This document shows, one piece after another, positions 11,286 to 63,500 of a stretch of 64,000 nucleotides of DNA (position 1 is the stretch's first letter; the number at the start of each line of letters is the position of its first letter). This DNA is from Apostichopus japonicus. Lineage: Eukaryota > Echinodermata > Holothuroidea > Aspidochirotida > Stichopodidae. Where the stretch lies: NCBI RefSeq assembly GCF_037975245.1, contig NC_092565.1, positions 12,856,499 to 12,920,498 of the forward strand. The letters run 5' to 3'. The translations under genes and the position numbers were made by a program. The notes under the pieces are model-generated. The model was not told where the DNA came from and did not search any database. It saw only the letters and a list, made by a program, of their open reading frames with translations.

Positions 11286-14200
11286 TCAAGGCGATCTTGG
11301 AACGTGAAGGAACAGCTGAGGTGAATCTTTGGTGCCTTTAATTGGATCTCGTGTTGCATCATTCAGTATGACGTCACGCAGTTCGGCTGGTGTGAGAGTA
11401 GGGTTTAAGCCAAGATGGATTGCTGCCACACCTGTAAACATCAAGTTAAACATGTTAAGTTGGTTATAGTCTGCTTGTGACTACACGTGTGCTTCTATTT
11501 ATTTGGACAAATATTCGAAAGTTGTATTCAAACCACGGTTCTCGGCAGTTTTTTGTTAAGATGAGAGGTCATACCTCAAGTAAAGGCACGTAAACCATAG
11601 CTACGCACACGTCATTTTTAAGATAAGTCACACAGGAAAGAGTCCAGTCTGGGCACACACGACTTGTCTTTATCAGCAACCTTAGGATATTGAATTTCGA
11701 TCACTTTATTCTCAATTTTTTAGTTTTTGCACTGTTGACGCAAGTAAGCAGTGACTGAATTCCCTCTGTATACCAATAACGGGGGCAAACTTAGAATAGT
11801 CCCTCTTTAGTAGTAAAATTAATTATGAAGTGGCATTTTTATATTCAAAAGTTGTCTTGTAAAAAATGAAAAAAAAAGTGTCAGTTAAATCTGCCAGTTG
11901 TTTATTTCAGAAGTACTTTTTTTTGCCAAACAAAAGATATGAAGAAAAGAAAATCTTTGAATATTAGAAAGTGCAGTTTTGTTGAAAAATATATAAATAC
12001 CGGATTTGGTCAGATATTTCAGAGATATCTTTGTGGTTTTCTCCATCAATTTAAAGTCACATATAACAGTACCCTCGACGTTTCTGCCCCACCCTTTCAT
12101 ATCGAACCCCACTTTTGTTGCCTGCTTTAATGAAACACGGTCTGGGCCTACCATCACACCTCGTCTTACCTTTCATCCCACCCCTTCCCCCTCGCCTCGA
12201 GAAGTTTTGCCCCGTTCATATGTTTAAGCTGCCTGTCTGCCTGAAATCACACGTTAGCCTTTCAGTTAATTATTTATTATATCTTTTATTAAATTATACC
12301 TGCAACATGAGGAGCCGCCATACTCGTTCCGCTTAGGATTGCGTAATCATCGTCAGCTCTATAATACGCTGCCGTGATCGATCGACCAGGAGCATAAATA
12401 TCGACACAACCTCCAACGTTTGAAAAGTATGCTCGGATATCATCAAACTGGGAAGCACCGACCGTTAAGGCCTGGGAAAGATAATGTAAAACACAGTTTA
12501 GTTTAGCATTAGTGGGTACTTTTGGGGTGAGGACACATTTTGGGGGTGGGGACTCATTTTTGGGGTGGGGACTCATGTTTGGGGTGGGGACTCATTTTGG
12601 GGGAGGGGACTCATGTTTGGGGATGGAAACTCATGTTTGGGGGTGGGGTATGCCTCTGTTCGTTTCCGCAGTGACATTCCACCTCTCCATAAGAAACCAA
12701 AGACTGTGCAGTAAGACTGTTCAGTAAGGAAATGTCGATAGAAATCAATGTGACATGATTTCAACATGATAACGGTCCTCATGTCACAGCATTTTCGATG
12801 CTACTTTTCTTCCAAATTTGATTTCTGGAAAGATTTCTCTATGATTTGTTGCCTGCCTGTACGTAAAACATCAGTGACGTAGCAACGGGGGGCCAGGGGC
12901 CTCTCCCCTCCCCCAAATATTTTAGTGGCCCCTTCAATAATTGGTCAGGAAAATGCCTATTTTGGTTGTAGAAAATAGGTTTGAACAGCCTGCACCCTAG
13001 AGAGTATTGGACCTTCTACGAAAGAAGTTAAGCTTCGTCCCTGGTATGCATACGATATGATACGATATGATACGATATGATGATCTTAAATGTACCTGTG
13101 GGGCTCCTGCCGGCGACTTGAAACAGGAGTTGGAGTTATCGTTCCCGGCAGAAACCGTTGACAGAACCCCAGCGTCGAATAAGCCGGCTAAGCCTTCATT
13201 TACTGAACGGGTTGATCCGCCGCCCAAAGACATTGACGCTACAGCTGGTCGATTACCATTTTGTGCAACCCATTCCATCCCTATCGGTAAATACCAACAA
13301 CAAAAAAATATATAAATAGAAACATGCGACAACATAAATTCATCCTCTTAGAAAAATAAATTATACTACGGGAATTAAAGAGGTTTAACGCTGCATTTTA
13401 GGCTACATTGTGATAATTTTGACCACACCGAATGATGTTAGTTACTGTATCACTGGGTACCCTTTGTCCACTTTACGGCTCCATGGTGAATAACACCGTT
13501 TTGCTGCACCTAATCTAACGGAATTTAACAAACCGTCCAATCCAACAGAGAGATATTGTGGTCTATATATGGACGTCATATAATGACTTTCATATTTTCA
13601 TCTTTGTCAAAATTTGAAGTTTGACGTTCCTGATGCAGTTGTTAGGCTTGGGTAGATCGGAGTGCGTATGTATGGGAGACAGGTAAGTGAGGAGTGATAA
13701 AATTGTAGCTGTGACATTATGTTTAGATACTCTTCTCTTGGATAGTCGAGTACCAGATAGTACCATAGGCGTGGGAGCCCAATTTGATTTGGGGGGGGGG
13801 GGGGTGGGGGGGGGCTGTAACGACTTGCCGTGTTCAACATGTACATACCATATAGGCACGCATCGGTTATTAACTTATTGCATCGCATCATCCGCGGAAT
13901 GCTAATGTAGATAGAGAAAAAAGCATGGAGGGCCATTACGTCAAAACTCTCGTTTACATTAGTAAAGGCGAATAAGTCGGGCAAACTTAGAACTTTGTTT
14001 AATTACCAAGGGCGATTTTTTTTTTAAAACTTTTGATTTCCTTAAGCTACATCATTGTCATTTTTTTTTAAATTCACAGCATATTGCCTAAATTTTCACA
14101 AAAATATTTGGTTTAGGGGATGCATAGTACCCTATGGATAGTACCGCGATAGTATGAAACCACGCTTCACAGCTGGCAATATTGTTGTTGTTGATTATAG

Positions 14201-17200
14201 ACAGACGGACGAATGGACTGACGTACTGATTCACGGATGATAGACGGACAGATAGTTAAAGGAAGATACATAAAAATTGATCAAATTAAAATAGCCTCTC
14301 AAGATCTTTACTGAAGGAATGAACACATTTGTGTCCGACACTTTTAACACATGCACTATTTCCATCTAAAAGCTCTCTAAAAAAAGAGAAATACAAGAAA
14401 TGCCACTTTAAGTTTGAATAAACTTGTTGATTCTGTCAGCCGGCTTTATCAACGAAGAGCCTATAGTTGTGGGCGAAACAAATAGTACAAAGAGATTTAC
14501 TTTTTGGATAAATAACACCATCGCCAAAACAACCTCCCCCTCCCCCCCCCCCCCCACCTCCCGCAACCACTTCATTCCCAAATACAGCAAACATCCGACC
14601 AGACCGGAAAACAACAAAACAAAAATAGAAATTACCATTAATAATGGCAGCCCAACTTCCTGAACCTTGGCAGCCCAGTACACGGACCGCGTATACTTTT
14701 GCCTTTTTAGCGACACCGTAAACCTTGCCGGCTATTGTTCCTGCGCAGTGAGTACCGTGTCCACGACAATCAGACCCGTCACCCTATATAAGAATTGACC
14801 AAAGACAAAAATATGAGATATTACGAGAAAGCAATAAAATAAATATTCCATACGTTATTTTGTTTTCTAACTGATGGGACATTACCGTTTATCTATACCA
14901 TTATGCCGACACATTATGACCTTACATCAACTCCATCTCCACCAGGAGCAACCCTTCCCCCTATGTTGTTACGCCATATGCATACCATATTTATTTTTAA
15001 CTTACAATTGCGTATTCCATCGCATCGTAAACGAATGAAGCTCTTCCTTCAAACTCTTCATGAGTCGTTCTGATTCCTGTGTCCAAGACATAGACGTTTG
15101 CGCCTGCGCCATCACCTGTAAAACACGTTCAATAGATTACAAAATATTGAAAGCGTCCAGCAATTGCTATAACAAAATAATAACAACAGTCACGTGCATA
15201 GGATCTCGAAGGATTTGAGAGGGTGCTACCATGGGGTTGTTCAAGGCGACTTCCGGCATATTAGAGGGGTTGGGCAAATTAGACGTTTAAACGTCAAATG
15301 GTTTATTCAGAAGTATATGTAGACTAGAAATTTAAGTCTAAACGTCTTTAACTAGTGTGTAACGTCAAACATGGAGGTGTAAACCCGGAGGAGTGATCCA
15401 ATTCTTCCCCAGCTGAATGTCAAACTTTTCCCGACTGAGCCACTTTCCCCCGACGGACGATGAAAGTTGAGGTCACGACCCCTGCCCCTGTTCCCCTCTC
15501 CCACTTGCGGACGCTACTACCTATCACGTTTTTTTGACAAATTTCTAGTTGAAGTAGATGGAAATTTAAACAATTATCATATCATTTTTTCCAATACACA
15601 TCGTTAATCACTCAACAGTTCTATGAGATGCTGATCAGGACACGGAGGCTTACCTATTGGTTTATATTGATCATCTAACGGCAAGTACCTCTGGTCGATT
15701 CGATCTAACCCCCAGGTCTCATCCTCATGAGCTACGCCATCTTCCTCCACATACTTCACAGCATCCAGTGAACGTATCTGCACAGTAAATGAGTAAAATA
15801 CTTCTATGGTTATCATAAATCTCGATTTCTTGGGGATTGTCTCATTTTTTCGAAAATATATTGTTTCGCCGTCGAACTAAATTCTCCCAACTGTCGAATA
15901 TTCTTTGTGACTGTCAAAAATATCACTGTTTTACGACACCCAAACTGAAAAAAACCCACACGTTTTATGCATTATTATACGTGGCTGTTTCGGAAGCATG
16001 GTCGTTTTCAATATACAGAAATGATTGATGGCCGCATATAAGCCCCACGCTTGACGGGAGAAGCTACATAGCCCTCTTTAATGTCCAAAATTTCCCATAG
16101 GAGGTGGGAGGGGACGTATAGTGTCCTACTTTCAACCAAAGAAATATGGTAACTCTAAACGCGACTAACTACCCTTACATTATCAAGTCTTTTATAGTCT
16201 TAAAGGTGTTAGTGGTAGATGATAGGGCGGGAGAGGGGGATGTTTTTTGGGGAATGACGGGTGTGTGGGAGGGGTCAGGGTGTGAGAGGGTGAAGGGTGA
16301 GGGTGAAGGGAGTGGGGGAAGGGTGTGTGGGATGGGTGAAGGGTGTGTGGGGATGAAGGGTGTTGGAGAAGGGTGTGGGGGAAGGGGAAGGGGAAAGGGA
16401 AGGCGTTTTTGAGGGGTGAAAGGTGTGGCGGTTCACCAGCCATGTTCACCACCTGGTTCCGGTTTACCACCAAGAGTAAAAGCTTAACGAAGACACTCAC
16501 GTAAGGCAGCAGGTCCTTGTTGAATTCAGCAGCGAATCCATTTAAGACACGGCGAAAAGAGAACTTGCTTCGAAAGTTCATTGCAGAACTTTGTGCACGA
16601 AATGAAATAGAATGGATCATCGCTTCTGGATCAAATTCTTTCTGTATAGAAAAGAAGAAATAAGTACAACAAATGTTGTTAAATTTTATTACACCGAAAT
16701 TGGAGTTCCCTGTTGGATTTCAAACTACACCCACCCCTTCACTATGGCTCCAAACGATTACCTCAAAACCAAAGTTTAGTTATTACACTGAGTACTAAAA
16801 ACTACAAGATGAAGAGAGACATTGTCATTCAATTTTTGGTTTGGTTATGTTAGATAGTTTTATTGGCTGCGGAGTAAATATAAAGATGGTTATGATGTGT
16901 AATTCTAGAGTCCAGATTATTTATTATCGAAGAGTTCTAATTACAGGATGATTGAACGGAGGACACAGAATGACATGAATAAACTAGTTGAATACAAAGA
17001 GAAGATTTAACTCAATTTTCAGCGAAATAATTAATTTTATTTAAAGACAGGAAGTTCTTACTTAAAATTGTTACATGAATGTAACATAAAAGACAAACAT
17101 CAATTTGAAAATGTTTCGCAACCTGAATAATATCAAACATTTTCTCCTCAATAGTGAGTGAGTGTAATGTCACATCCTTTGTCAAATTGAAAAGACATTA

Positions 17201-23440: not shown

Positions 23441-26400
23441 TTAAGACGAGCGAGGTAAATATAGAAACAACGCGGGTGAATCTTTATCGTCCTTTATAGG
23501 GTCACGTGTTGCTGTATTTAATATGACGTCACGGAGTTGGCTGGGTGTTAGAGATGGGTTGATACCCAAGTGTACTGCAGCAACACCTGTTCACAAAAGA
23601 AAAGACATTAACGAACTGGCGTTAAAGCCACATGAAACTATAGACGAAACAAAATATGTTCCAACTCCTTGTTTAAACTATAGGTTTCCAAAAACAATTC
23701 ATTCAGACTCAAATTTCTCCAAATTGTTCCCAGAAGTCGGAGAGGATTAAGAGTTATGCTGATGAGTGACCCCCCTCCCCCCCCCCCCTCCGCCCACACA
23801 CACACACCCTCATACATGATTACGCCTGTAATATAAATACTCAATCATGTAGACATCGCTATATAAAATGCAACTAAATTAAATATAATTATTGTACGTT
23901 TAAACGCATTCATTTGTATTCCTACCTGCAACATGTGGAGCGGCCATACTTGTACCACTAAGAACCGCGTAATCGTCGTCCGCGCGGTTATACGCGGCAG
24001 TGATATATCGACCGGGAGCAAATATATCTACGCATGCGCCAAAGTTCGAAAAATATGCTCTGATGTCATCAATCTGAGATGCGCCCACTGTAAGGGCCTG
24101 AAAGAGATAAGAAAATACTCGAAAACATGACAATGTCATCACCGTATATATTATAGACTTTGAAATAAAAGCGGTTGGTGGAAAAGTATCATTACTTGAA
24201 TGTGTAGTTAAACTTATAAATACATCTAATTTCACAGCTTATTGTTAAAACTATTGAGTAGAAATCGCGCCTATATTGTTTGATAGAATAACACTTTACT
24301 TCACACTGTCATTTGTCAATTATACCAAAAAATTAGATATTAAAAATGTGCCCAGGCTCCACATTTTTATAAAATCAACAAGAGCATAACGCTGTTTAAT
24401 TCAGACGATTAAGTGGAGTATTTTACACTGCTTATGTTTTATTTTAATTTTTTTTTATCAAGGCACTGCTCCACCGGGGCCATTAAAATAGATTAAATAT
24501 GCAATTCCACTTCAGATTAATTGTAAACTGCTTCCCTTCGGGCATCATTCGTCACTGAAGTAGAAACTCTGGAAAATTTTGAATCAACAAAACATTGTGT
24601 ATGATATTGTATGGACAAGACATCTGTGGACATGGTATTGTGTGGATAAGGCATTGTGTGGACATACCTTCGCGGCGCGAGCTGGTGAATAGAAACATGC
24701 ATCGTTGTCGCTGTTTCCTGCCGCTACAACTGGTAGGACGCCACTATCGAATAACCCAGAAATACCTTCGTCAACTGCTCTTACAGCGCCACCTCCGAGG
24801 GACATGGACGCTACTGCGGGAAGCTGGCCGTTTTCAGCGACCCACTCCATACCTTGATAATTGGAATAGACGGGAACTTAAGGTTGCAGTTTAATGAGGA
24901 ATCTCTAGGATTTTTATAGAAGTAAACGAAATTTCTTTAAATCGATGTCTGAACATTGTCATGTTTTTATATATTGCATGAAATGACTGTTAAGTTTGAT
25001 GCTGGGAAGAGATCCCATTCGCTCCATAACTACTGAATTAAAATCATTTTAATTCCAAATCGTCGATCACATTTGGTGTGGCTTCTACAAAGTTAATATG
25101 AGATAGCTTAAGATAGGTTAGGATAAGGAGAAAATTTACCATTTATAACAGCGGCCCACGAACCGGACCCAGCACATCCAAGGACTCTTACAGCGTGGAG
25201 CCTAGCCTGCTTGGCCACCCCGTAAACTTTTCCTGCGATTGTTCCTGCGCAGTGTGTGCCGTGACCTCGGCAATCGGAATCATCACCCTGTAGAAGGAGA
25301 GAGCACATAAAAAAGAACAGTGTGTTTGTGTGTTTACGGGGGGAGGGGGGTTCAAATTCCAGTATCGATTTTGCTAGGGGCATGAACTTTAAAAGAAGGG
25401 TGTAGTTGTGGGTCCCCTGAATGCGACGCCCATGTAGGGTGGTCTTGGGGTGTTCCCTCAGAAGATCATCATTTTCAAATATCGAAATCAAATGTTGCAT
25501 TTTCTGGCCATAAATGCTATTATTGGGCGATCAAATTCATATAGGCCTATATACATATAACCAAGGTACGTACTATAGCGTATTCCATAGCATCAAAGTC
25601 AAACGTCGCACGATCTTCAAAGTCCTCGTGTGTGATTCGAATGCCGGTATCTAGCACATATACATGGACACCTGTACCGTCACCTACAGAGCAGATAAAA
25701 CAAAGAACCAACTTAAAACAGGGAGATATTCACACATATCCATCGATTTTAAATATTAAATTGTTACAATCTATTATAATATATCTGTCGATCGTTTGAC
25801 TTCATAAGGAGCTATCACCCTCGTATCCCCCACCGACAAGGCACAACGACGTATTCTGAGGGATTTAGCCCCCCCTCCCGCCAAACAAAGCAGGGGACTC
25901 AACCCCCCACCCCCCCCCCCACACACACACTGCTAGACAGAATATTACAAAAAATCCTTGTGTACGGTACATACATTTATAACTTCGGTACAATATAAAT
26001 AGTCTCAAAAAAAAAATCAACAATTTTTAAAATATTTCCAAAATATAAGACCATTCATTTTTAATCTAAGCACCCTTTAATTTACCAAAAGTCACCAAAG
26101 GGAATGGGACACCCGGTCCCCTTGCACCCCCTCCCCCCCCCCCCTTGGATGACTTAGTAATTACCCTCTACCACAAGTACAATAAAGGTGGTTGCGCCGT
26201 GCCATACTTTACCTACGTAAGTTGACCGTTAAACCAACAAGCGTGGGCATAGCCTTCTTGTGCTTATGTTTTATTTCCCAACATTATACTGGACGATGGA
26301 CATGTATTTAAAGGCCGGACAGAAATATTATCGTTAAGCTGTTTGGACAAGAAAATCTTACTGGGTTTTGAGATTTGAGATAAAGTCTTATTTATTTAGT

Positions 26401-31039: not shown

Positions 31040-34000
31040 ATGGATGAATCTCAAGGAGGCAGTGATCCCAATCGAAGGCGTCAGATTCGACATGAGTATC
31101 GAGATCTCATCACTCAACTCAGTAAACAAGTGTTTTGTTATTTGTAGTGTAACGATAACTGTTGGAAAGTTTCCACCGTCATAGGTTCACCACCTAACTT
31201 TAGATCCTCAACATTTTAAGAATCTCAGAATAAATTATATTTCTTCCCAGATATGTATCTGACAATGAAATTTTATCCACCACAACGATGTACCAGAAAA
31301 CCCTTAAATTTGCTTGTTTGGGGTAGAGATTTCAATTTATGAGCTTTTGCCGAAAAATATAAGAAAAAAACCCTTTCAGCCAGCTTCTCCAGATTTTTGC
31401 AAATTACAGGGAATATCCTGCTCATATATTTTAAACAGGAAAGTTCCTCACGAATGTTACTGGTAGAATGTATCTTAGAATGGAATTGTAATGACAGTTT
31501 AGCTTTGGTGGTGACTTTATGACTGCACCTTAACATAAAGTTTTCTCCATACATGTGGTATAGGCTTAAGCTGCAGTCTACTCTAGATGCATTGGTGTGT
31601 AGTGGCAACTTCATGACTGCTTAGAACTGTGACAAGGTTGCCAAGGCAACTTTTTGAAATTGTGACTTAGTTTTGAGACTGTTGTACAACACTTTTTGAA
31701 GATTTTTTCGGTTTCAACATATCTGTAAAAGATATAATCTAAATATTTCTGTGCCAAGTTTGACAGAAGAAAGAAACTTTAATATGTTTTAATAGCATAT
31801 TAAAACATGTTTAATTTGTAATTTTATGACACTTTTCATAATTAATACTTACTAGTTTATTAATATTTAATATTGGTATTAGTGTCAGTGGTAGCAGCAG
31901 TAGTAACACTGGGAGTAATGTAAGTTCTGGCAGTAGCAGTAGTTTGTGTTGATAGCGTAGTGTTTAGTGAAATGTATGTTACAAACCTTACCCTTACACA
32001 ATTGACACCATACTACCACAGTTGTTAAGCAAAACTTACGATTCCTAACAGATGAACTCAATCAGTGTTAGTTGCAGGTGGTATTATTCATAACATCCCA
32101 GACGATAGTAACAACACAAAGAAACAGAGATTCAACCCCAACAAATGTTAAATTGCAAGATTGCAACCTTACCAGGGGGTCAGGGCTATGTTGTTTTTAT
32201 AGTTTATGTTTTTCTGTTATCAGATAACCAAGAAGATGACAACCCAGAAAGCTTGAATAAGACTCTTGCAACAGCTGACAAATTGTATGAAGAAGGTATG
32301 TTTTGTATCTATTGTTATAAAGCCGGAGTTGACTTACAGTGACAATTTTTAAGGGATGCATTACATTGACCTGTGTGATACTATATCTAGCATGTGTAAC
32401 AAAAGAGGTGCTCATAAAATGGCCTTATTTATACTCAGTGATACTCGAAAGAAAATTTCTGTAGAGAGAGTTACACTATCATTGTATTACTAAAAATGTA
32501 AAATTTCTGGAAAAATGTTAAAAGAGGGAAAGAAAAAAAGTGTTTTAAGTTTTTTTAGGTGTGTGTTTTTGTATAGTCCTTTTGGATGAGGTGTGTTACA
32601 TAATGTTAAATGGCTACAAAATGTTACAAAAGGTTGCACAAAATGTTAAATGGCTACACGCACCAGTATATATTAAAGGGAATCACTGAGAAACACTGAT
32701 TTGGGCATTCCATACACTGTCTATGGATTGTATTTAAATGTTACAGGGTCTGAGGTTTCATTATTGATTTGTAAGAACTTTATTGGGCTAGCCAACCACT
32801 CTCCTCACCCCCGTGGTCCCCCCCCCCTCCTTCCCTCCTTTCTCTGTAGCTCTGCTACTGGAACAATGCTATTCTTCTCTCTCTCTCTCTGAATGTCACA
32901 ATAACCATGGACTTCTGGTAACTCCAAATTTGATAGGTTTTTCTATGTAGTTTTGTTTGTAACCTTTCTTTCTCAGTCCCATTTTTAGTTTTGTTTTGCT
33001 CTATTTACTTTAAATCATATTTTTGGCACATTTATCAGTCTTACAGACAAAGTCAGCCGGGATTGCAGCCCTGGATGCTGTGTTATTGCATTCTGCATCT
33101 ACGGTGACATATCAAAATGCTCAGAAACTTGTAGTGGACAACAAATTTGAACCCAGGCAGTTCACTGAGAAATTGGTAAGTATTATATAAATACTGCACT
33201 TTCCTTCACATTAGCACAGCTCAACTTTTTTTCATTGGATTTGGTACTTTTTTCAAATTTATTAATTTGAAAATACTGTAGAGAGGACAAATTCAGAGAA
33301 GGCATTCACTTGTTTCTGACAAGTTAAAGGAGTTTTTTAGTACAGATATTTGGATTTTTGACATTGTTGGGACCCATTGTAACAGGTCCATTCATTATAA
33401 GTCTACTATTATACAGCTGAGGCAACCAAAAGTTAAAGGGATGATCTGCTTGCTGAATATGATTGCTGAACAAAAAATGAAAATGTTGAAAATTTTCTGC
33501 ATCTTTAGGCCAATACAACATCCTCATAGCACTTTATTTAGTGAAAAAAATGATTCTTTTGCTTCTTTTGTTTCTTGAAATTTTGTGATATTATTTTGTG
33601 AATGCATTGGGCAACAGCAGAGTAAATGATGGCATACTCAGTTAAAATGCTTTTTGTTTTGGCTTTAATGATATTTAAATAAATAACTACCCACAGAGAA
33701 AGGTAAATTGTCAAAACAAGATGTGTTTGTTAATCATTCTAGCTACAGAGTGCGTTGCCTGCTATGCAGAAATGCCAATGAATAAATTAACAAGAATATA
33801 ATAATAATAAGAAAAGTGAAACTTTTCAAGAACATGTGCCATGATGACATCACACCACCTTACTGCAATCCACAGCCTAAGTGTTGGCCGTGGGGGGGGG
33901 GGGGGAGAGGAATGTTTCTATATCCAGTCATTATAGTATACATCCAATCAAGAGAGAGCGTGGTGGCCAATTGGTTAAGGCGTTGGACTCGTGATCCAAG

Positions 34001-37000
34001 GATTGCTGGTTCGAATCTTGCCTAGTTCATTACGTTGTGTCCTTGGGCAAGATGCTTTATCTCACTTGCCTCTCTCCACCCAGGGATTAAATGGGTACCT
34101 GTGAGGTAACTTGTCATTGGGCGCAGTATATAACTGCTGCTGACTGGAGGGATTGTCTCTGGGACAAGTCATCATTGACCAGGGGTAATATAATGTCTGT
34201 AAAGCGCTTCGAGACCTATCGCTGGCATAAAGCGCTATATAAAAGCAATATTATATTATCAACCATAGTTAGTTACAAGATACTGAGATGGAGTTTTCAA
34301 CTAACACTGTGGGCATATTTTTACTCTTCAAGGTAAGTGTCGCATTGCCTGCCACAAGAATAACCCTTTAAGAGATGGTCAGTTGAGTTTAGTCATAATT
34401 TCTTCATTTAAGTATTGAGGCTATGAGTTAATGGAAATGGTTAGAATGAGATGTTATTAAGATTTATGTTATCATTTTCTCCTGGTTGCTGCTTTATTCA
34501 GGTTACATTGTTAACTGGCAGAAGAAACACAGGTAACAACCAAAGGGAAGTCAATGTAAAGAAAGAAGCCTGGAAAGATTTTGGGAAGGATGTCCAATGC
34601 TGTTTCAGAAGGGCGCCACCATTTCATTTCATGTAAGTGCATATTATAAGTACCTTGTATTTTGCATTGAGTTCTAACTCTTTGTTAAATATTCTGACCA
34701 TGGCATGTCATGTATTACACAGAATTTATTTACCACTAAATCAAACCAACAGATCCATGTAGTTTCAGTCTCTTGGTCTGTTCCAAGTACACAAGTAGTT
34801 AAGCAAAACTTCAAATACCTGATGACTCTGGTTGTGACAAAGACTACACAGCCTACACAGGTTAGGGTAATGTTTGCTCATGCTGTGGCAAAGTTGCTCA
34901 AGTTGTGACAAAGTCTACCCAAACTGCAGCTTAAAATCAGCTGAGTGTCTTAATATTTATTACACTTCCCAGAAGTGTCTGGAAGTGATTCATAGCAGTG
35001 ACTTGTCTAATCACTCTACACTTTTGCATTACACAACAAAGAAAACCACACAAAGGGATCTTAAGTCATATGTGGCTGTGCCTGGGACTATACACAGGAG
35101 CATTATAATTGTAACAACAAAAAGAAAATAAATCTGGGGGAGGGGGGTGGGGTGGGGAGTTTGAAACTCACTGGCATATCTTATTAGGTATGAGTATATG
35201 AAATCAAAGGCTCAGCCTATTGTAAGGCAGAACTGGAATATTTGTAATAAGCACTAAAACAGCATCCCTATATGTAATTATTTTTTATTATTATGGTCCA
35301 AAGCCTCGTAGCTCTCAGCAAACTTGTACCCACTTTAATTGCAATGGTTATTTATCACATATCGGGAAGATTGGATGGTAGTGGCAGCAATTGTAGAAGG
35401 GTAGCTGCTATGTGAGTTACAGATCCTTTGAAGCCCTGATATAAATCGAGCAAGATGAATGTGTATATCTTTATCTTATTCCCACCCTTTGCACTTTTCA
35501 TAATTATTCTAACAATTTTTGTGTGCAGCAATTCCAAAAGACATTACCTTACTATGTGTTTAATTTTTAATGTTATTGAGAACAGGTTGGGAAGTTTTGA
35601 TAGAGGTCCTCCTGTTCAGAAGCCCAAACCTCCTACTGATAGACAAGGAGCAAAACCTGATGGGCCGGCAGTAGTTCCTGTACAGGTATTATGGATACTC
35701 TTTCTGGTTGTTCATCATTACAGCATGTGTAAATGTGAAAAAGGTGTCTTCCCTGTATGACATAAGTTATCTTACTTCTGGCCCCCCTGCCTCATTGCTA
35801 TAACTATGTATTAAGAAATGTACTTCATTGTGATTTAATGGCAGAAAATAAACAAAACATAAAGCTGTTTGTGGAAACAATTCCTGTAATTGAAGGCCCA
35901 GACTGCAAGTTAATTTTCCCATTCTTACGCTTTTGTAGATGTGGGGTATTTTCTTAATATAATATCATATAGCATTATGGTTTATACTCAGGGGATGTCA
36001 CATACATTTATGAAATACTCTGGGATATTAGTTTCTTGCAAACCTGCATTTGCTGAATAATATCACAAACTTTTGCGAACAAGTTTACAATATTCAGAGT
36101 GTGACGAGTGGACTATAAAAGTGCAGCTAGTTGATTGAGACACTGTTCTATGATCAATTTACCATCAGGAAAAGATAGAAGCAACAGATAACATCAGAAT
36201 GTTGCTCAATAAACAACCACAACAAGCTTTGATCATAACCACAGCTATTCGGGTATGACTGGGATTGACCCTGTTTAAACCGTAATCCATTCCATACTTT
36301 CTTGCATCCTCTTTTTGTTTTTTTTTTTGTTTTTTTGCATGTCCCTACATCCCTCCCTATGCATCCTTTGTCAATGTTTTTCTCAAAGTCCATAGCTGAG
36401 AATGTGCTTGATAATAATGCCTCGTATCTTCTCACCCTGTTCCCTGCGTTATTTTCAGATCGACGAAACAGGTAAAAGCCAACAGGAAGTGACAACCGAG
36501 GAAGTGGAGAGAATGTTAGGTATCTTGAAACAGCTGACGATGGGCGATTCCCAGGATGAAGGTTAGTATTAGGCTCCATCGATCAGTTTAATGCTCTGAT
36601 CTCATCGTTGCAATTTGTACTTGCAGGGCAAGGCTTTTATTTTACTCTCTTTATCCATGGTTTTAAGCTTCACAGGTGCTGTCAAATTAAGACCGTATGT
36701 AGACATAAGAGCAGGTGTCTCCAATTTCAAGACCAAGCCACTTGATTTCTTTGATATACTTTGGATTCTTATTTTCACTCTTAATATAACAATCAAGTGT
36801 GATCCACAGGTGTGGCCTGCCCCGCAAATTGTCAGCAGTCCACCAGAATGTTTTCAAAACCCTTTGAATGCGACCTGTGTAACCCTTAAGTACCAATGCA
36901 ATGTTTCTACCCAATCCAAAGGAATATACGGTGAATTTTTTTGATGACTGAAAGGTGAAATTGTTTGTGTAATAGTGTCTACTTGTGATATGATACTATC

Positions 37001-40000
37001 AACTTAAATAATGTACAGTGCAAGTAAGAGAACTTTCTGATCTTGTAGTTCCAACATGTACATGTAACATAAGGTTCTGTTAGTGGAGTTGTTGTATCCT
37101 TTAAATGTTGCTTGCTACAGATTGGAGACAAAATACCTTAGCCCTGTAGGTCTGGTTTTGCCTACCCATACTCTAACCCCTCTATACCAACCTTCAACAC
37201 CTCATGTCTTTATAACCTGCACCCAGTGTGTACCTTTACTGATGAAAACACAAAACAAATTCTCAAAAGTCCAGAGATATTTCGTTTTAGCAATCAGCAT
37301 TGCAAATTTACGCATCGCTTTTGTGAAAGCCTCTTAAGTTTGGTGGGATTTATGAATGTATCTGGCAAACCACAGAGTGAGTGACATCATCAACTAGCAG
37401 ATAAGTCCTAATAAAAGAGAATTGACCTTGATTAGACAAAAAAAAAAACTTTGATATGAAATTCTCTTGTGATTTTGCCTTTACCAAGTGAATTGCTTGA
37501 ATTACGCAGAACAGTTGCCTCTTTTTCAATACGGTAATTTATTCTGTAACAATTAGCAATTTCTCTGAAAATGATTTCCTTCAATCTTGCTTTTCTTTTT
37601 TTCCTCTCTTTTCCTTCCAGTTGAACCAATCAGCTACTTTGAGTTTGTAATCAACCCACAATCTTTCAGTCACACAATAGAAAATATATTCCATATGTCT
37701 TTCCTAGTCAAGGTAAAATATCTTTATTTTTGTTCTCACTACTTATTGTCTGGTCTGCATGTGATTTAGTTTTATCGAGAGAAAAGAGGAGAAAAGATTA
37801 TTGTAATAGTTTAAAACTGCTACTGTCAGATACCCTAGGAGTCAGGGTTGGACTCCACTTCAGTCAGTATGGAAAGAATAGCATACAACAATAATAAAAT
37901 GAGAAATGGGGGGGGGGAGTCTGGATTTCAATGACAGGGAATTTTATGCAAGAACCAAGCCCATGCAAAATGACAGTTCAAGTAGTCATTTTGTTGCGTT
38001 TCATATCTCAGAGAGTAGTTTAGAATCTCCCAGAATATATATTTTACTTTTTCAATACAAGTTTGAACAAGAAAAGAAATGTTTGGCTAGAATAGGATTT
38101 TTAACCAGTGACCTCAGTGATCACAAGTCATTGCACTCTAACCAATAGTTTTCAGTTTTTAGCCCAAAAGTTTGTTTGCTGTTTTCCAAGTTTTTATAAT
38201 TTCTCCAGACATTTTGTTGTTGTTTGAAAAGAGTATTCTGGTGGCTTACGTTGAATGCTGTGCAAATTTCGGAGTTTTTAGGTGAAATTCTCATCCTCAT
38301 GTAATGTTTTGTATCGCTAAAATATTTTATTTTGTGATTATTTGTAAATGTATCTGGCAATAAGCAGAATGGATGATATCATCAGGACACTTCAGCTGAA
38401 AAGGTCTTTGTTTTTACTTTACAATTTGTCCAATAATTGACCACAGAGGAAAAGAATATTACAAAAAGAGATACATGTTAATGCAATTCTAAGTACAGAG
38501 AACTTTGACAGCTAAAACTAACATTCCAAAATGTATCAGGTTTCAGGGATAATTCAACAAGAAGATTATAAATAGCCTAAGGAGAGCATTTGCCCAGATG
38601 AAATCACAGACCCCCCCTAATGTGATCCAACATCCTGGAGTAGTTGAATGGTTAGCCAGTCAAAATATATGGTTACATTCAATTAACCATATCTCAAGTT
38701 AAGGTCTAAGAAATTGAGTGAGTGTTTTCAACGAGCCATTGTGGAATATTCTACTCTTCATTGTCTTATATAACAATAGGACGGTCATGTCCAGATCAAA
38801 CTAGACGAAGACGGCCTGCCAGTAGTCTACCCGTCCCAACCTTTCAACCCGCAAGAGCACAATGAAGAAGTCCCAAGGAAGCAGCTCGTCCTCAGTATGG
38901 ACATGAGAGAGTGGAAGGTAAGATGTAACAGTGTGACTGTCCTCTTAGAAACATACCTGTCGGCCTTGAAATATAGCTGTTTCCTCCTCCTCCTCCCTCT
39001 CCACTACCCCACCCCTCCCTCCTCCCCCAGGAAGCAGCTCGTCCTCAGTATGGACATGAGAGAATGGAAGGTAAGATGTAACAGTGTGACTGTCCTCTTA
39101 GAAACATACCTGTCGGCCTCGAAATATAGCTTTTTCCCTCAAGCACAAAATGCTGTAGTTTATTTTAGTGTTTGATTCAACCAGGGGGTTCTTACCACTT
39201 TGAAGTAAGATGCTTTCAATCACATATTTACCTTCGCTGAAACTATCGTTCTGTAAAACATTAAAAAGCAAAAGTCATATTTGGTTTGTTTGAAAATAGA
39301 AAAGATTTACGGTAGCATTGCCAATCTAGCAAATAGTACCCAAATTGTGGTTTAGCTGTGTAAGAAGGTTTATCTTCAAAGCCAAAAGCTGCCTACACCA
39401 AGGATATTTATATTTTAAGAAACATAATGGAGAACGCAAATGATGTTTTCAAAAATGTGGAAATTTCACTCAAATGGTGGTAGGATGCTTTTAGGTGTAC
39501 AAGATTCGTTAACTTTTACAATAATTATTGCTTTGATATCAGTGGATGACTGTACTACAAACGTTACCTATTATGTTAATATGCACTACCGCATGTTATA
39601 ATTTTAACACTGTAGCGTAGCAAATAAGCTCATGTGTTAGCATACCAGCATGCTTTAGTTAATGTTCAATTCTGAGTACAAAACATGTCCTCTTAACGTC
39701 CTAAATTGAGCTCTCTCAGATGACATTGAATGCTGTTGTTAGAACATTACGCAGAGTGTCCTAGTCACTTGAATCGATAAGCCTTGGATTTAGAGTTTAT
39801 CGGTCTTAGAAACATGTTATCATGAACAGCCTTAAGTATTTACATTATTTGATGAAAGAATTCAATCAAAACGACCATACGAGACATGCATAAATCGCAG
39901 TTTACTTCAAACGTCATATTTGAATCGACAGGAGATCGTTGAAGTGTTTGAAATCTCCGAGCCCACGATCCCTCCGAGGGAAGACAAGAAAGCCCGAAAG

Positions 40001-40027
40001 AAGAAGAACCGTGCCGTCTCCAGATGA
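31040..40027 (+). CDS. NSMCE4A: NSMCE4A (Nse4), kleisin subunit of the SMC5/6 complex
   Basis: Nine coding exons: 31040-31121, 32224-32295, 33039-33175, 34502-34632, 35586-35685, 36459-36561, 37621-37712, 38780-38917 and 39932-40027 (TGA 40025-40027). Phases close exactly and give 316 aa. The ATG follows an in-frame TAA (31028-31030) in the same exon; an acceptor at 31005 implies a leader exon. Family landmarks: [13 protein letters not shown] near the N terminus (the Nse4 segment that contacts the SMC neck), [20 protein letters not shown] then LGSF in the middle, and [20 protein letters not shown] in the conserved C-terminal domain. The basic tail KKARKKKNR may be nuclear. Nse4 bridges the SMC5 and SMC6 heads with Nse1 and Nse3 and acts in DNA repair and chromosome maintenance. 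It is somewhat shorter than vertebrate NSE4A. The exon 1 donor (CTCA then gtaaac) was chosen because only it keeps frame with exon 2. Confidence 0.93.
33600..33760. repeat. Dispersed intronic repeat, NSMCE4A introns
   Basis: GAATGCATTGGGCAACAGCA, then AGAGTAAATGATGGCATACT and ACTACCCACAGAGAAAGG, resemble the block at 38343-38560 (AAATGTATCTGGCAATAAGC; TTGACCACAGAGGAAAAG) and a short one at 37352-37400 (GAATGTATCTGGCAAACCAC). These are diverged members of one repeat family spread over three introns. Confidence 0.5.
33955..34262 (+). mobile_element. tRNA-derived SINE
   Basis: The head GTGGCCAATTGGTTAAGGC is an A box and GGTTCGAATC a B box. Between them TTGGA-CTCGTGA-TCCAA forms an anticodon stem and 7-base loop with CGT at the anticodon, like tRNA-Thr. 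The body includes TTGGGCAAGATGCTTTATCT and AAATGGGTACCTGTGAGGTA, and the tail has AAAGCGCTATATAAAAGC, as in many invertebrate SINEs that share a LINE-like 3' end. It lies in intron 3 of NSMCE4A, same strand. Confidence 0.85.
38085..38150 (-). repeat. tRNA-like sequence on the minus strand
   Basis: On the minus strand TATTGGTTAGAGTGC reads as an A box, followed by AATGACTTGTGATCACTGAG and then TGGTTAAAAATCC, a worn B box. Probably the head of an old SINE in intron 7 of NSMCE4A. Confidence 0.5.
38343..38560. repeat. Dispersed intronic repeat, second copy
   Basis: Begins AAATGTATCTGGCAATAAGC, continues TGGATGATATCATCAGGACA and later TTGACCACAGAGGAAAAG. It is similar in order and spacing to the block at 33600-33760 in another intron of the same gene. 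Confidence 0.5.
38876..39132 (+). repeat. Recent tandem duplication across the exon 8 donor of NSMCE4A
   Basis: Bases 38876-38979 are repeated at 39029-39132 with only two or three changes. Each copy holds the last 42 coding bases of exon 8, the 5' splice site (AAG then gtaaga) and about 60 bp of intron. The joining segment is a CT-rich tract ending CCTCCTCCCCCAG directly before the second copy, which also makes a good 3' splice site. The offset is 153 bp, a multiple of three, and the frame between the two donors is open. Confidence 0.9.
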
Positions 40028-41041
40028 AACGTGGTTCGCAGACAGAGGAAGTAGTTCACTGTGAAATCTTGCCTTGAATGTATCTATTCTTACAGCATCG
40101 ACTGGGTGATGGCTTGAATCCAATAGCGGTGGTCATAGTTACTCCAGTCCTTCCACCCCCCTCGCCTCCCTGCCAAGAATCAATGCACAGAATGGTTTAT
40201 TTCTGACTTGGTGGGAAGTATCAGTCAGTTAACATAGAATGAAATGCATTTGATAGGTATAACTTCTGGTCTTCTGGTTTGGAAAGAGGAGGTAAGGTTT
40301 TCCACTAGGAAATAAAGGCAATAAAGGCATCAAAAGTGACAGTTGTGAGCAACGGTAATAGACGATATGTAAACCTGTTCACTACGAGGCCACTGTAGTC
40401 ATAACTGCCATATGTTAACTTTTTCCCTTCCAACGCACACAACCAGATAACTTAATAGTTTAATATTTCTGTGTATGTCAGCCTATTTTAGCTTCTTAGC
40501 TTTCATCCCAGCTAGATCGTTGTAAAATTTTTTGCTTCCATCCTGAAAACAGTCCAGAAATGGTCTAATTTTGACAGACTTCCAAACTTATGGATTTCAG
40601 TAAGATGGGGGGAAAAAATTGTTTATTTGATGCTGTCGCTCTGCCTTCTGAGTTTAGGATGTCAAGGCTGTTTGGTAATGATGTAAGATCATTGACTGAC
40701 AATAAAATCTCAGGAAGGTTATTCATAAAGTGTAATTAAATGATGTCAATTTAATTTCAAAACATTTAATTTTTATACGATGACTTTAGGCATCAAATTA
40801 ATTTTGATATGTTGCAGACCGTTATAAACCACATCTAGCAGTCCAGGTTGTAATTCTATGTCATTTTTCTTTCTTGATTTATTTTATTTTGTAAATGTGA
40901 CCCATTGAGCATCTGAGGCTCATCAATTAAAGCGACTGGACTAATTAGTCTAACCCACACAGACAATTTGGTCAGAACCTCATATGAAACACAAAACTCT
41001 ATATAACAGCATCATACACACCTTGTATGGCCTTAAATAAA
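40028..41041 (+). other. NSMCE4A 3' UTR with poly(A) signal
   Basis: AATAAA at 41036-41041 (CCTTAAATAAACTGG), about 1 kb after the stop, is the best polyadenylation signal. An earlier AATAAA near 40309 (GGAAATAAAGGC) could give a shorter 3' UTR. Confidence 0.5.
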
Positions 41042-41790
41042 CTGGTGTTGAAATGTCATCTAATCATGCTCTGTTGTTTTAAAAGAAGTTTAAATAACAG
41101 GGCTTGGTTGATAGTTGATAGAATTTATAAAACGATATGTAAACTTTGGCATTTAGGCCTTCACTAAGGATCTGTGAAGTAGACTTCATTTACTTTAGCA
41201 AATCTTAAAGCTGAATATCTTGAAACCTGAAATAGCTTTAGAAACATTACAAGAACTCCATTCAACTAGGACATATCAAGTTTACAATACCACCAAAAGT
41301 CTTCATTGAAACATTCCAACAAGAATGACAAAGTAGATTAATCATTGTCCATTACCGAGTTCCTCCCACCCTCCCCTCCCCCCCCCATTTTTCTGATGAG
41401 TGTAGTTTAATAGTTCATAGGTAGCAACAGTACTTGCTGTAAATATTATTTCTTAATCTTCCTTCTTGTTTGATATATCTATCTGTATGAGTAGTTTTCT
41501 TCGATAAGAATTTACTGATAGTTGGTAAATAGAATTGACTATTTAACTTGTAAATATACTGATAATATTGTTAAAAAAAAATTATTGCTCGCTTTCCTTG
41601 TCTTTTTTATCTGTCTTATTAATAATTCCAAAGCCATATGTATCATATAAGCCCCAATATTGGCCAAGTACATACTTTATTTAAGAAAATACCCACACAG
41701 TCTGTTATATGAACTGCTTATGATACAACTGGTTAACTGGCCTTGCCGATTCCCACTGTAAGAGCTGTAGCACTTATGTACATTTTTCTT

Positions 41791-41823
41791 CTATATATAT
41801 ATTTATATATATATATATATATA
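41791..41823. repeat. (AT)n microsatellite
   Basis: A TA dinucleotide run broken once by ATTT, in the NSMCE4A 3' flank. Confidence 0.85.
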
Positions 41824-42109
41824 GTTGTCTAGAATGTGGAAGTTCTTTCACTGTTTCGGAGTCGTTCGTGCAATGCGGGCTGTGAGTTGTTCAATTTTAT
41901 GTATAAAAATGCTTTTTATAGACTTAGAGAGGTATAATTATTACCTTGTGTTTTATGCGTTTTTTTATTATTGCTGGTATGTTGTTTATTTAGCTTATCT
42001 TCGATCGCGGAAAATAATTAGTCTCTCATAATAAGTGACACTTCATAATGTTCACCTTCACTGTTTGTGAAGGATATTTATTGGATGAGGAAGTGCCTCT
42101 CCCAACCTC

Positions 42110-43034: not shown

Positions 43035-52137
<9,103 letters not shown>

Positions 52138-56230: not shown

Positions 56231-57317
56231 TTACCAAAACCACCATCCATCATCTTCTTCCTCTTCCTCCTCCGGGACGCAATACGGCTGATCTCCGTTG
56301 GTTTCCAACATGTATACCCCTGGTGCCCCATCTTTTGCATGGTAGCCCATTATTGGGCAGCTGTTATCCCCACAGGAGTTGCAGTGGCCATTTTCAAAGT
56401 CATCCCAAGAACTACATGGGTAAGATTTGAATTCACATTCACTAGTGTCGAAGCTTTCGGTGAAGTACCAGATGGAGCGAAGGTGATCACATACGTCACG
56501 ACCAAGAAGAGCCTTCCAACAACCAGGTTGATCGCTCCCACCATTAGGGAAGAAATCCAAGTGGCCATGCTACAACAAAAATATAAATAAATAAAGTACC
56601 ATAGAGGCAAGAGTTTACCTGTAGAGAGATGGTAGGTGTAAGGGTTGTATCATGGGTCTACAGATTGAAGTGAAAACCATCCGTGACGAGATGTCCTCGT
56701 TTTAATATCTTTAATGAATACATTTGTGGTCAAAGTTAGATCAAAGCATTTCTACTTGGTGTTATTATTTAGAGATGTTAGGGTCGACCTAAACTAATTT
56801 TGTGTAACACTTACCGTTTGTGCACTGCCCAAAAATGCATCGGTGTGTATAACATCAACAAAGGGTGCATCCGTAGGATCAAGTTTACAGTCAAGATGAG
56901 TAAACTGGTCAAAATGAGGACCGGCTGGATCAAGACCTAATAGCGAAACGAAATCTTCAGCAGAGCAACTAGTCATCATCATCATTATTATCATTATCAT
57001 TATTATTATTATTATCATAACTTTATTAGCATCATCATCGTCGTCGTTATTATCATCATCATTATTATCATCATCTTAATCATCATCAATATTATTATTA
57101 TCAACTTCATTATTATCATAATTTTTATCATAATTATCATTATCATCATTATAATCATTATTATTACATCATCATTATTATCAACATTATTATCACCATC
57201 AACATTATTATTATCACCATCATTATCATCTTCATCATTGGCATCGTCATCATCTTCATCATCATCAATAATCATCATCATCAATAATCATCATCATCAA
57301 TAATCATCATCATCAAT

Positions 57318-57406
<89 letters not shown>

Positions 57407-60400
57407 ATAATCATCATCAGCATCATCATCATAATCGTTTATTTTTACAAATATTTCTTCATCTATTTCACTCATTAAAAACTTGGATGTAAAAGGTAAC
57501 CATCAAATTGCTTGCTATATTATATTACAGTGAATATTGTCCTCTTGTGTAGTAATAGTACAGTCGTATGATGTCATGGAAGCGAATTACTTTTATTGGT
57601 TCCTACGACCATTAGAACGCGACCTCTAGCTGGGTCAGATAAACTTGTTTTTTATGCGACGTACACTTATAATTAGAAAGTGCAAATGAACTCAAGCACC
57701 AAATAAAGCGACAGTAATCTTCAGTTACAGCTTTACTATCATTTTCTCCCGGCACGATTCACATTTCAAAGGGTTGTTCGGCCTTGACAAATATGATATG
57801 GGAGCCGAAGAGTTCGCTTCAAAATTCTCACCCCTGCTGTGTAGTGGAACAGTCACCCGATTTTATCATCGGAATTGCTAGCACTACCTAGAGTTATCTT
57901 TAATTCGTTACCAAACATGCAAATATTTGCACGACGATGATGGTAGCTCATATGTGTGAGATAGATAACCCACTGACATAAGTTACCAGCAACATAACTT
58001 TCATAGAGGATGACGAAAGGAATATGTTAGGTTTAATTAAAAGACCGAAATGAAAATCGGATGATGTATGTATGGCCGAAGACTTGAACAAGTATACAAA
58101 GAACGTCACAACACCCGAACTATGGCACTTCATCCTTTCATTGTCTATCTTTCTATTCATTTATTTTAGTGTTTTAGTCTAAGTTGGAATTAATGTTTGG
58201 AAATGCTTTAGTCCAAAACGCCTTCAATTTAATGGGTTAGTTAAAAGCTAATGTAAATCACAGTGACGGCAATGTATAATTACAACACCAATAGAAAACT
58301 TGCAATCCAGGGGCTTCGATCATGGGGGAGACAGAGGGACATGCTTCCCCCAACTTCTGAAGGATGGGGGGAAATATATAAAAGCCCCCCCCCCCAGCTT
58401 AGTGACTGACTCGTATAGGCCTATCCGGCTCATAATGACTCGTATATCTCACAAAGGGAGCTCAGACATTGTGCTATGAGATTAGTAGTTATTAATTTTT
58501 CATTCTCACCTGCTCAACACCCCCCCCCCGTCCCTCGATGAAAACTACAAATTTTCAACTGGATTGAAATAAGAATTACGGAACCGCGCCCATATACCGC
58601 AGAGGTTATCTAAGGCTGGCAGATAATGAGAGCCCGCAGCATTCGCTAATCTCCTTCCAGAATATTATGATTAGTTTTTCTACATGTGAGTCCACTCCCT
58701 GCATCTCCGCCGGTGCTTCGCCCTTGGACCCCATCAAGGGATCTAAGACGGGCCCCTGGACCCCACATGATAAATGCTTTGCGCTAAGGCGCTCGCGGTG
58801 TACGCTACGCGCAAACCTCAGTTTCTGTCCCACACACCCCACTGTTTAATTGGGATTGACGTCCCTGTTGAAATAAATAAATGTCACGTTCTATTTAGAT
58901 AACAACATGTGATAACGAAAGAAGACGAAATTTAAGAGTCAAAGCTTGGTTGGAATATATAGATTACATACATTCAAGAGCATTTCGGCGTCTTGAATAT
59001 TTTTTTAATATTTTTTTGGGGTACAGAAATTTACGGCTACAATGTTGGTAGTTTCTTTACTCGAGGCCAGTGTTTTATCATTTCAGATTCCATTGTTCAT
59101 CATTTTGTATGATAAACAGTTTAAATGAGACAAGTAAATAAAATGACCTGGGCTTCTTCTTCTTCTGCTTCCCTCTTTAAACTATTATGTCATCCTGGAT
59201 ATGAAAAATAACATTTTAATGTGACTAAATGGAACAGATAATATACTAACCGGTTACTCGTGGTAAGTCGGGTATGTTCTTGGCGATGTGGCCAACCATG
59301 TGAGCGCCTGTACTATGTCCAACCAAATAAAAGCTTTTCGCGCTGACTTGTTTAACTTCCATGATTTTCTCGATTAAGTTGATTGTCTGCTGGGCAACAA
59401 CTCGACTGTTTTGTAAAGACTGGTAATATAAAAGAGGAATGTCCGCTCCTAGACGCCAGTCGACGAAAATGATGTTAAAGTCACCCTGTAACGCGAAAAT
59501 AAAGTTTGTCTCTAGTTCAAATATTTATACATACGTAAATTGATTTTAAGAAAAAGAAGTTGTTAAGCGAAATGAAGTTAAAAACGAAATTTACTTACTG
59601 GCGAACATTACTGATTTTTTTGGGAGGGGAGGGGGTGAAGGGTTGGGGTTATGGGTTGTTAGATACCGTACACCCTGGAGCGAGTTTAGAAACGTTCAAT
59701 GTCGTGTGCAATTGCATTTCTTTCATTTAGTCGAGGAAGAATTAGATCACTCCCCAAGTAGAGGACGCCCTTCTATAATGATTTATGATTCATTCACCTA
59801 ACAACATCAGTCAGGTGGGGGGGGGGGGGGGGAAGGGATTTAGAATTTTCCACTCCCATTCAGGGCGTTACCTCTGAAGTCATGTACATGTTGTTGGGAA
59901 TATTGCCATTGATTGTTTGAGTGAATGTGCAGAGAGAGGGAGTATCTGTGCATGTCTGTATCACAGTTGAAAAGCTTTGCACCACCCCATCTCCCAACTA
60001 AAAGACAAATGATTTAGCTACGCCCTTGTTTAATTTGACCAGAATTTCTCACAGATATATCCTAGAAAGTCAATTATGATAAAGTTACAGAAGGACTATG
60101 CAGACTCTCACCTGATTTAAGGTCCTTTTAGGTCTAATGTAACATGACTCACTATTTGGGAAACGGATCAGGTCAGATCTTACGTAAAAGGTACTTTAAG
60201 ATAAGGGGTGGGCACGAAACGTTATTTGGCGGGCCACCGTGACATTTTGTATCAAACCCTATCCACGTGCGGCTTTAGGAATGTGCCTACTCCCATTATA
60301 CAACTAAACATATGGCATACTGGAACTTAAAGACCAAACACTTTATATAGTACATCTCTTAAGTTCAAATATACATCACAAGGAGAAGATACATGTATAG

Positions 60401-60899
60401 TCCCTATTTCTGGTATTCCTTTGCAATATGCTAATGTACCCCATCAATGTTTTTTTGAAGCTTTTTTTCACAGGCCACCGAAAATTTACTGGAGAGCCCG
60501 CATGCCACCCGCATTCCGCACTTTTTTTCTAAAATATCCAGTCTCGAATTTGAGCAGGGTAGCTCGAACGTAGATCAAAGAGGTCTGATTATTTTATTAT
60601 TCTCACCATCCGAAGGATAGCATCCCTTAATTTCAGATTCCAATTTCGATCCATATTGTCTGTGAAACCGTGGATATAAACGATGGTGTCGCGAGTTGCT
60701 TGGAAATTTGACCACTCAATAATGTTAGTACTGGTATTCAAAGCTTCAAAGAAGACGGGACGTTCTCTCGTGAAGAGCCAAAACTCGGTGCCAATTTCTT
60801 CTGGTGTCCAAGGAGGGAAAAAATCCTGATTACAATCTAGCTGGTTGTCGAAGCAACCCACGTCTTCGAAGCATACCTCGTCTCCGTTGACTGAGCATG
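56231..60899 (-). CDS. Pancreatic-lipase-family enzyme, short lid, no PLAT; probably phospholipase A1-like
   Basis: Four exons on the minus strand: 60607-60899, 59251-59485, 56815-56936 and 56231-56569 (TAA 56231-56233), phases 0,1,0 after a phase-1 entry; 329 residues are visible. The signal-peptide exon was not found and may lie beyond the window. Exon 1 has VCFEDVGCFDNQ, the typical mature N terminus, and DTIVYIHGFTDN. The triad is Ser in LVGHSTGAH, Asp in GLDPAGP and His in CDHLRS. VDVIHTD and GHLDFFPNGG follow the family. Only nine residues separate the two lid cysteines (PGCWKALLGRDVC), much shorter than in classical pancreatic lipase, and the C-terminal PLAT domain is missing. In this family those traits go with phospholipase A1 activity (inference). 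The protein ends in a run of Glu/Asp then GWWFW, which I cannot explain. Predicted secreted. Confidence 0.88.
56975..57435. repeat. ATC/ATT trinucleotide microsatellite
   Basis: About 460 bp of ATT and ATC triplets, becoming a pure (ATC)n run at about 57320-57405. It lies in intron 2-3 of the lipase gene, roughly 40 bp upstream of an exon on the coding strand. Confidence 0.9.
57436..59250. other. Remainder of the large lipase intron
   Basis: No coding exon found. Poly-C and poly-G runs near 58386 and 58522, and a moderately GC-rich block at 58590-58850 with no recognisable product. Confidence 0.4.
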
Positions 60900-61214
60900 C
60901 TTAGAAAAAGGGTGGAAGAAAAAAAAAGAGCAAATGAATTGGATTATATCATTTGCCAAAATTAGGGGCGGATCAAACTTTTGAAAAGGAGAGTGTGTGG
61001 CCCTGGGGTGTTTGAAGCCATTGCACACGTAACGGTCAGTCTAGGGGTTTACCCTAAAAAAACCCGAAATATCTGAGTGACATGATATAGTGTATTTCAT
61101 GGCGTACTTAGGCTATAAAGTATAGGTCTCGAATTATAGGGTTTACAAGCAAGGTGGAATGTGCTAATAACTACTTTAAGTTGTGTGGGATTGAAACGGG
61201 GTGTACAACCAACC

Positions 61215-62760: not shown

Positions 62761-62984
62761 TCCAGATCCTGGGTCCTGATCCCTATATCAGGATTACTCC
62801 TGATATATGATCTGGATTTGGGATTAGGTCTGGGCAGGGATTTGGTTTTGGGATTGTTGTAGTTAATAATATTGCAAATTGAGAAAACTCAATGTTCTTA
62901 AAACCAAGTGGTATTTTCCTTCCGTAGCCGACAACATTCACTGTCTAATGCTTCGCATTGTTTCTCTCTGTAATGATTTTTTCT

Positions 62985-63500
62985 GCGTAATGCATTCTTC
63001 CTCTGCGTAATGCATTCTTCCTCTGCGTAATGCATTCTTCCTCTGCGTAATGCATTCTTCCTCTGCGTAATGCATTTTTCTCTGCGTAATGCACTTTTCT
63101 CTGCGTAATGCACTTTTCTCTGCGTTATGCATTCTTTCTATGCGTAATAAATTCTTCCTCTGCGTAATGCATTCTTTCTCTGCGTAATGCATTCTTCCTC
63201 TGCGTAATGCATTCTTCCTCTGCGTAATGCATTCTTCCTCTGCGTAATGCATTCTTTCTCTGCGTAATGCACTCTTTTCTGCGTAATGCATTCTTTGTCT
63301 GCGTAATGCATTCTTCCTCTACGTAATGCATTCTTTCTCTGCGTTATGCATTCTTTCTCTGCGTAATACATTCTTTCTCTGCGTAATGCATTCTTTCTCT
63401 GCGTAATGCATTCTTTCTCTGCGTAATGCACTTTACTCTGCGTAATGCATTTTTTCTCTGCGTAATGCATTCTTCCTCTGCGTAATGTATGTTTTCTCTG
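62985..63500. repeat. 20-bp minisatellite CTCTGCGTAATGCATTCTTC
   Basis: About 26 units of 18-20 bp. The first few (63001-63060) are identical 20-mers; later units vary as CTCTGCGTAATGCATTCTTT, or CACTTT in place of CATTCTT. The core TGCGTAATGCA contains the partial palindrome TGCATTACGCA. Open frames across it on the minus strand are a by-product of the repeat, and no splice or start context supports coding. Confidence 0.92.

Follow-up and report, generated by a model that had tools for sequence, protein, structure and literature searches.

A splice-site duplication at the penultimate coding exon of an Nse4 gene in Apostichopus japonicus

The closest described parallel to the locus reported here is the potato RdRp gene, in which an intron was gained by a tandem duplication over an intron/exon boundary, as supported by 106 RNA reads and 53 genomic reads (PMC4974935). 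Tandem duplications also arise in mouse embryonic stem cells via the repair of breaks with protruding ends; filler between the copies is not in evidence in the passages of that report drawn on here (PMC5730883). For alternative 5' splice sites, exemplified by intron 4 of DOK7, an account that cites earlier work describes SRSF1 as activating or favouring intron-proximal donors and hnRNP A1 as favouring intron-distal ones (PMC5585400). Among the listed papers that mention NSMCE4A and splicing, the titles and opening lines of abstracts do not describe the present duplication.

The Nse4 locus shares with potato RdRp a short tandem duplication over an exon/intron boundary that carries ready splice signals, with copies differing by a few bases. 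In potato, however, the 3' boundary was copied and the new intron was proven by RNA reads, whereas in Nse4 it is the 5' boundary and the case is known at the DNA level (PMC4974935). Furthermore, the new AG of Nse4 comes with the linker between the copies, and the new exon that it would open is 40 nt long and frame-breaking. As in intron gain by tandem duplication, the splice signals are supplied by the duplication; the frame, however, is not kept once the new intron is removed, as the 40-nt exon shifts it, a kept frame being usual for a lasting gain, although not demanded in the portion of PMC4974935 considered. The Nse4 case is best filed as an instance of splice-site duplication, the mirror image of potato RdRp, and not as a proved intron gain. 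The protruding-end repair products resemble it in being short local direct repeats, but the Nse4 copies are split by 40 nt of other DNA and carry 4 differences, and we infer their mechanism from shape alone (compare PMC5730883, in part). With DOK7 intron 4 the likeness lies in two donors facing one acceptor; the Nse4 donors differ in being duplicates with identical motifs, and are candidate sites read from sequence (compare PMC5585400, in part). Very probably, the splice-site duplication is genuine, but of an ordinary kind for which analogues have been published.

The Nse4 gene and its duplicated segment

The window, that is, the whole stretch analysed, comprises 64,000 nt of A. japonicus (NC_092565.1, 12,856,499-12,920,498, forward strand; GCF_037975245.1), and all coordinates are positions within it. 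It contains animal-type, intron-bearing genes, including one on the plus strand for the kleisin Nse4 (NSMCE4/EID3); Nse4 is part of a DNA-repair complex (SMC5/6). When the exons at 37621-37712, 38780-38917 and 39932-40027 were joined, their product matched Pfam Nse4_C (PF08743) over the entire profile (1-89 of 89) with 116.5 bits against a cut-off of 26, and also the solved chains of EID3 (E 2.5e-24, 88.9 bits) and yeast Nse4 (E 2.1e-13). By the homology of this C-terminal domain the gene is identified as Nse4 (NSMCE4/EID3). In the upstream part of the gene, 33050-33190 scored 22.5 bits against the Nse3-binding domain PF15412, whose cut-off of 23 lies marginally above. The features of the locus are collected in Table 1, where exons 8 (penultimate coding) and 9 (last coding) are numbered as in the earlier note.

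Table 1. Positions in the window of the features discussed in the text
Feature	Positions	Strand	Basis
Exon 5' of the duplicated exon; start of the Nse4 C-terminal domain	37621-37712	+	Homologous to EID3 and yeast Nse4; splice ranks 2 among 3509 (acceptor 37621) and 176 among 3671 (donor 37712)
Exon 8, penultimate coding exon, with donor 1	38780-38917	+	Nse4_C match; splice ranks 14 among 3671 (donor) and a low 874 among 3509 (acceptor)
Repeat copy 1, with 46 coding and 67 intronic nt	38872-38984	+	Repeat comparison
Stretch exonic under donor 2 (51 open codons)	38918-39070	+	Translation, frame check
Linker, 40 nt, C/T-rich, in neither copy	38985-39024	+	Self-comparison, linker search
Repeat copy 2, differing from copy 1 at 4 positions	39025-39137	+	Repeat comparison
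Candidate 40-nt exon, new AG (39029-39030) to donor 2	39031-39070	+	Sequence, splice ranks; no yUnAy in 38918-39030
Exon 9, last coding exon, including the stop codon	39932-40027	+	Homology (EID3, yeast Nse4); yUnAy TTTAC, its A lying 27 nt 5' of the end of the acceptor AG

The segment 38872-38984 recurs at 39025-39137 as a direct repeat of 113 nt with an offset of 153 nt and 4 mismatches (3.5%), at 38875/39028, 38911/39064, 38967/39120 and 38979/39132. Its self-BLAST E value was 2e-47, and it is therefore not a chance resemblance. Copy 1 spans the exon 8 donor, with 46 nt of coding and 67 nt of intronic sequence, and the two coding differences between the copies are both synonymous (CCA/CCC and GAG/GAA). 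The duplication that the earlier note had described across the exon 8 donor, 153 bp further on, is thus borne out, but its length of ~104 bp (38876-38979) was a slight under-call. Tandem Repeats Finder, run on 37000-42000, missed the repeat, probably for want of two complete periods. Two other gapped repeats were seen in the window, at 6560-6633/6693-6766 and 28710-28778/28912-28986; they are 77-80% alike and have no C/T linker.

The sequence of the 40-nt linker is absent from both outer flanks, 3' of copy 2 and 5' of copy 1. A search of the window for a parent of the linker gave no convincing candidate, the best other match being 24 nt at 92% identity on the minus strand (35134-35157; E 6e-4, unmasked search) in low-complexity sequence. 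The difference between the copies, 4 of 113 positions, has a 95% interval of 1.0-8.8%, a range that differences between alleles reach in some invertebrates. It would suit an error of assembly, such as the tandem joining of two haplotypes, and false gene gains have been described to arise from false assembly duplications (PMC9516828, in the part considered). However, since a coding exon precedes copy 1 and other intron sequence follows copy 2, the simple joining of single-copy haplotypes offers no source for the linker, and we regard an artefact as highly improbable. The same divergence was considered for dating the duplication and rejected, as it gives no age; moreover, had each copy come from a different allele, the two would have been unlike from the outset. 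A value of 3.5% proves neither youth nor polymorphism, and the words 'young, possibly polymorphic' and 'switch' in the earlier note find no support in the present sequence.

Two identical donors and the longer product

The donors after 38917 and 39070 are letter-identical (AAG/GTAAGATG) and tie at rank 14 among the 3671 GT sites of the window under a generic splice matrix. As this matrix is generic, two re-weightings were also used, one by local composition and one in which only T is credited and C is not. Under the generic matrix, no further donor above 4 bits was found within 38780-39939. The locus has the two donor motifs per acceptor of an alternative 5' splice site, in the form of the identical motifs at 38917 and 39070, of which the first gives an exon of 138 nt and the second, nearer to the exon 9 acceptor, an exon of 291 nt. 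As the motifs are identical, the choice between them is not readable from sequence, and a mixture of both donors' use is expected.

It seems decidedly doubtful that copy 2 is ignored, with nearly all transcripts made from donor 1 and the duplication persisting as silent intronic DNA. The normal joint, which yields the full-length Nse4_C domain from the shorter exon, speaks for such silence, as does the reported preference of hnRNP A1 for intron-distal donors, but donor 2 matches donor 1 letter for letter and lies closer to the exon 9 acceptor, and SRSF1 is reported to activate donors in the intron-proximal position (PMC5585400, in part).

Under the mixed use of both donors that we expect, the second would add 51 codons, as the earlier note had proposed: the read-through from 38918 to 39070 is 153 nt long and open in the exon's frame only, with stops in the other two. 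This open frame is unremarkable and weak evidence, because 1877 of the 7126 66-nt intron pieces of the Nse4 gene (26%; introns as bounded in this analysis) are open in a given frame, a C/T linker leaves hardly any room for stops and one third of all lengths are divisible by three.

In the donor-2 product, copy 2 runs into exon 9, so that the conserved end of the domain is restored unbroken with the extra residues just before it. The earlier claim that either splicing outcome alters the conserved C-terminal domain therefore clearly applies to the 40-nt exon only; the donor-2 product need not harm the domain. The insertion site lies just before PRKQ, in a region whose length varies across homologues; near PRKQ, EID3 has 2 additional residues and yeast Nse4 has 9 (1 before and 8 directly after RKQ). 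Because the insertion sits in this region of variable length, it may be tolerated, judging from the sequence. The donor-2 protein matched EID3 twice in phmmer (residues 1-78 and 115-142), and the second match crosses the junction of copy 2 with exon 9 and extends to the domain end; taken alone, this stretch of 28 residues gives a weak match (i-Evalue 0.14). As a whole, the donor-2 protein scored 80.6 bits against EID3 compared with 88.9 bits for the normal protein. Its higher Nse4_C score, 126.3 bits compared with 116.5, arises from the adding up of two partial stretches and is no proof of a better fit. The insert also contains a hydrophobic run, SCFLLLLPL, that might disturb folding.

A candidate 40-nt exon

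The AG at 39029-39030 is preceded by a C/T tract in which 19 of 20 positions are pyrimidines. Among the 3509 AG sites, the acceptor at 39031 ranked 1 with the generic matrix, 14 with local composition and 43 with T-only credit; the corresponding ranks were 279, 162 and 226 for the exon 9 acceptor and 874, 311 and 561 for that of exon 8, so that 39031 beats both under all three weightings. The local composition was taken from six acceptors that we placed ourselves, three by homology (37621, 38780 and 39932), one on a weak tblastn match (36459, E 0.22), one on a sub-threshold Pfam match (33047) and one by eye (32224); the splice ranks are rough, given a generic matrix and self-placed acceptors. 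The tract before 39031 has 3 T in 20 compared with 6-13 in the six placed acceptors of the gene. A consensus scan of 38918-39030 found no yUnAy branch point, the nearest UnAy lying 94 nt upstream and being separated from the site by AGs at 38947 and 38975. As branch points in animals are degenerate, the missing yUnAy no more than lowers the chance that 39031 is used.

As the earlier note had stated, 39031-39070 can be read as an exon of 40 nt, bounded by AG and GT, that would shift the frame before the last exon. Joined to exon 9 at 39932, it would lead to a stop at 39940-39942; this codon falls within the last coding exon, where the exon-junction rule of NMD would not detect it. The frameshifted product scored lower than the normal one, with 103.5 bits for Nse4_C and 75.8 bits for EID3. 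The predicted truncation within exon 9 could matter because the SMC5 head is bound by the C-terminal winged-helix domain of Nse4 (PMC7297730, in part).

If the 40-nt exon were commonly included (38917 to 39031, then 39070 to 39932), the protein would end early in the last exon, without the end of its SMC5-binding winged-helix domain, and the allele would be one of partial loss of function. We consider this unlikely. The pyrimidine tract and the ranks of 39031, which are better than those of exon 9, point towards inclusion, and C-rich tracts can promote cassette exons in mammals via poly(C)-binding proteins (PMC4797308, in part). However, inclusion has to contend with the branch-point gap and the paucity of T described above and with the length of 40 nt, short for an exon, and loss of the C-terminus would probably be selected against.

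Origin and significance of the duplication

The account that we favour, with a confidence slightly better than even, is a break-repair duplication whose donors are used, one or both, onto exon 9, which is nearly neutral and in which the 40-nt exon is minor. A short local tandem duplication with pyrimidine-rich filler would have copied the end of the penultimate exon together with the donor and 67 intronic nt, the simplest source being a staggered double-strand break mended by fill-in. The outcome would be a pair of strong donors, identical and spaced by 153 nt, most likely spliced from one or both onto exon 9 to give either the normal protein or one with 51 additional residues at a variable loop ahead of the last conserved segment. 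As both products would keep the conserved end of the domain, the change may be nearly neutral. The frameshifting exon would be a minor product, which could be commoner given the ranks of acceptor 39031. When a staggered break is filled in and filler is added, a direct repeat with foreign DNA between the copies is to be expected, and in rice small tandem duplications reportedly came from the repair of breaks with protruding ends (Vaughn and Bennetzen, 2014, cited in PMC5730883). The suggested repair origin is drawn from the shape of the repeat and this general model. Insertion of a transposon, with the 113 bp as its target-site duplication, was also considered and dropped: the 40-nt linker leaves no space for an element, and 113 bp is excessive, far above the usual length of target-site duplications.

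More ambitiously, the locus might show the birth of an exon and an intron within a gene of the SMC5/6 complex, in which one repair step copied a donor and supplied a pyrimidine tract and an AG, so that three isoforms (normal, +51 and truncated) compete in one species. We hold this to be very improbable; if it were true, selection's sorting of a new splice unit could be watched. Use of both donors would provide a clean natural test of how the cell chooses when two 5' splice sites are identical, and of small duplications as a feed of new exons and introns, and if donor 2 were unused the duplication would be silent. More broadly, the lesson is a modest one: a duplication of this kind may be tolerated, since the conserved end of the Nse4 domain would be retained in the longer product.

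Elsewhere in the window, tandem repeats were seen at 7025-7981 (an array of ~160-bp units, 88-94% alike) and at 62955-63500, where the minus-strand frames are open as ECITQRKNALRRGRMHYAE-like units. Within the minus-strand ORF 45057-46142, coding repeats of ~210 bp (45225-46072; 72-85% alike) encode a stalk rich in Ser and Thr, immediately followed by the start of a Fibrinogen_C domain. At 50042-50972, frames resembling the end of a reverse-transcriptase element, a label which is a guess, are followed by a long trinucleotide run; the first frame had no Pfam match at 0.001. Peptidase_S8 (subtilase) stretches lie on the minus strand at 12292-12591, 14439-14783 and 24587-24877 (42.4, 36 and 21.5 Pfam bits, the last marginally below the cut-off of 21.8). 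They apparently belong to two neighbouring genes ~10-12 kb apart, with exon-sized pairs 70-77% alike at 12297-12484/23923-24110, 14629-14810/25133-25314 and 15643-15779/26488-26624. Finally, three Pfam Lipase stretches (80.7, 41.3 and 39.8 bits) on the minus strand of 56234-60900 are exons of at least one lipase gene.
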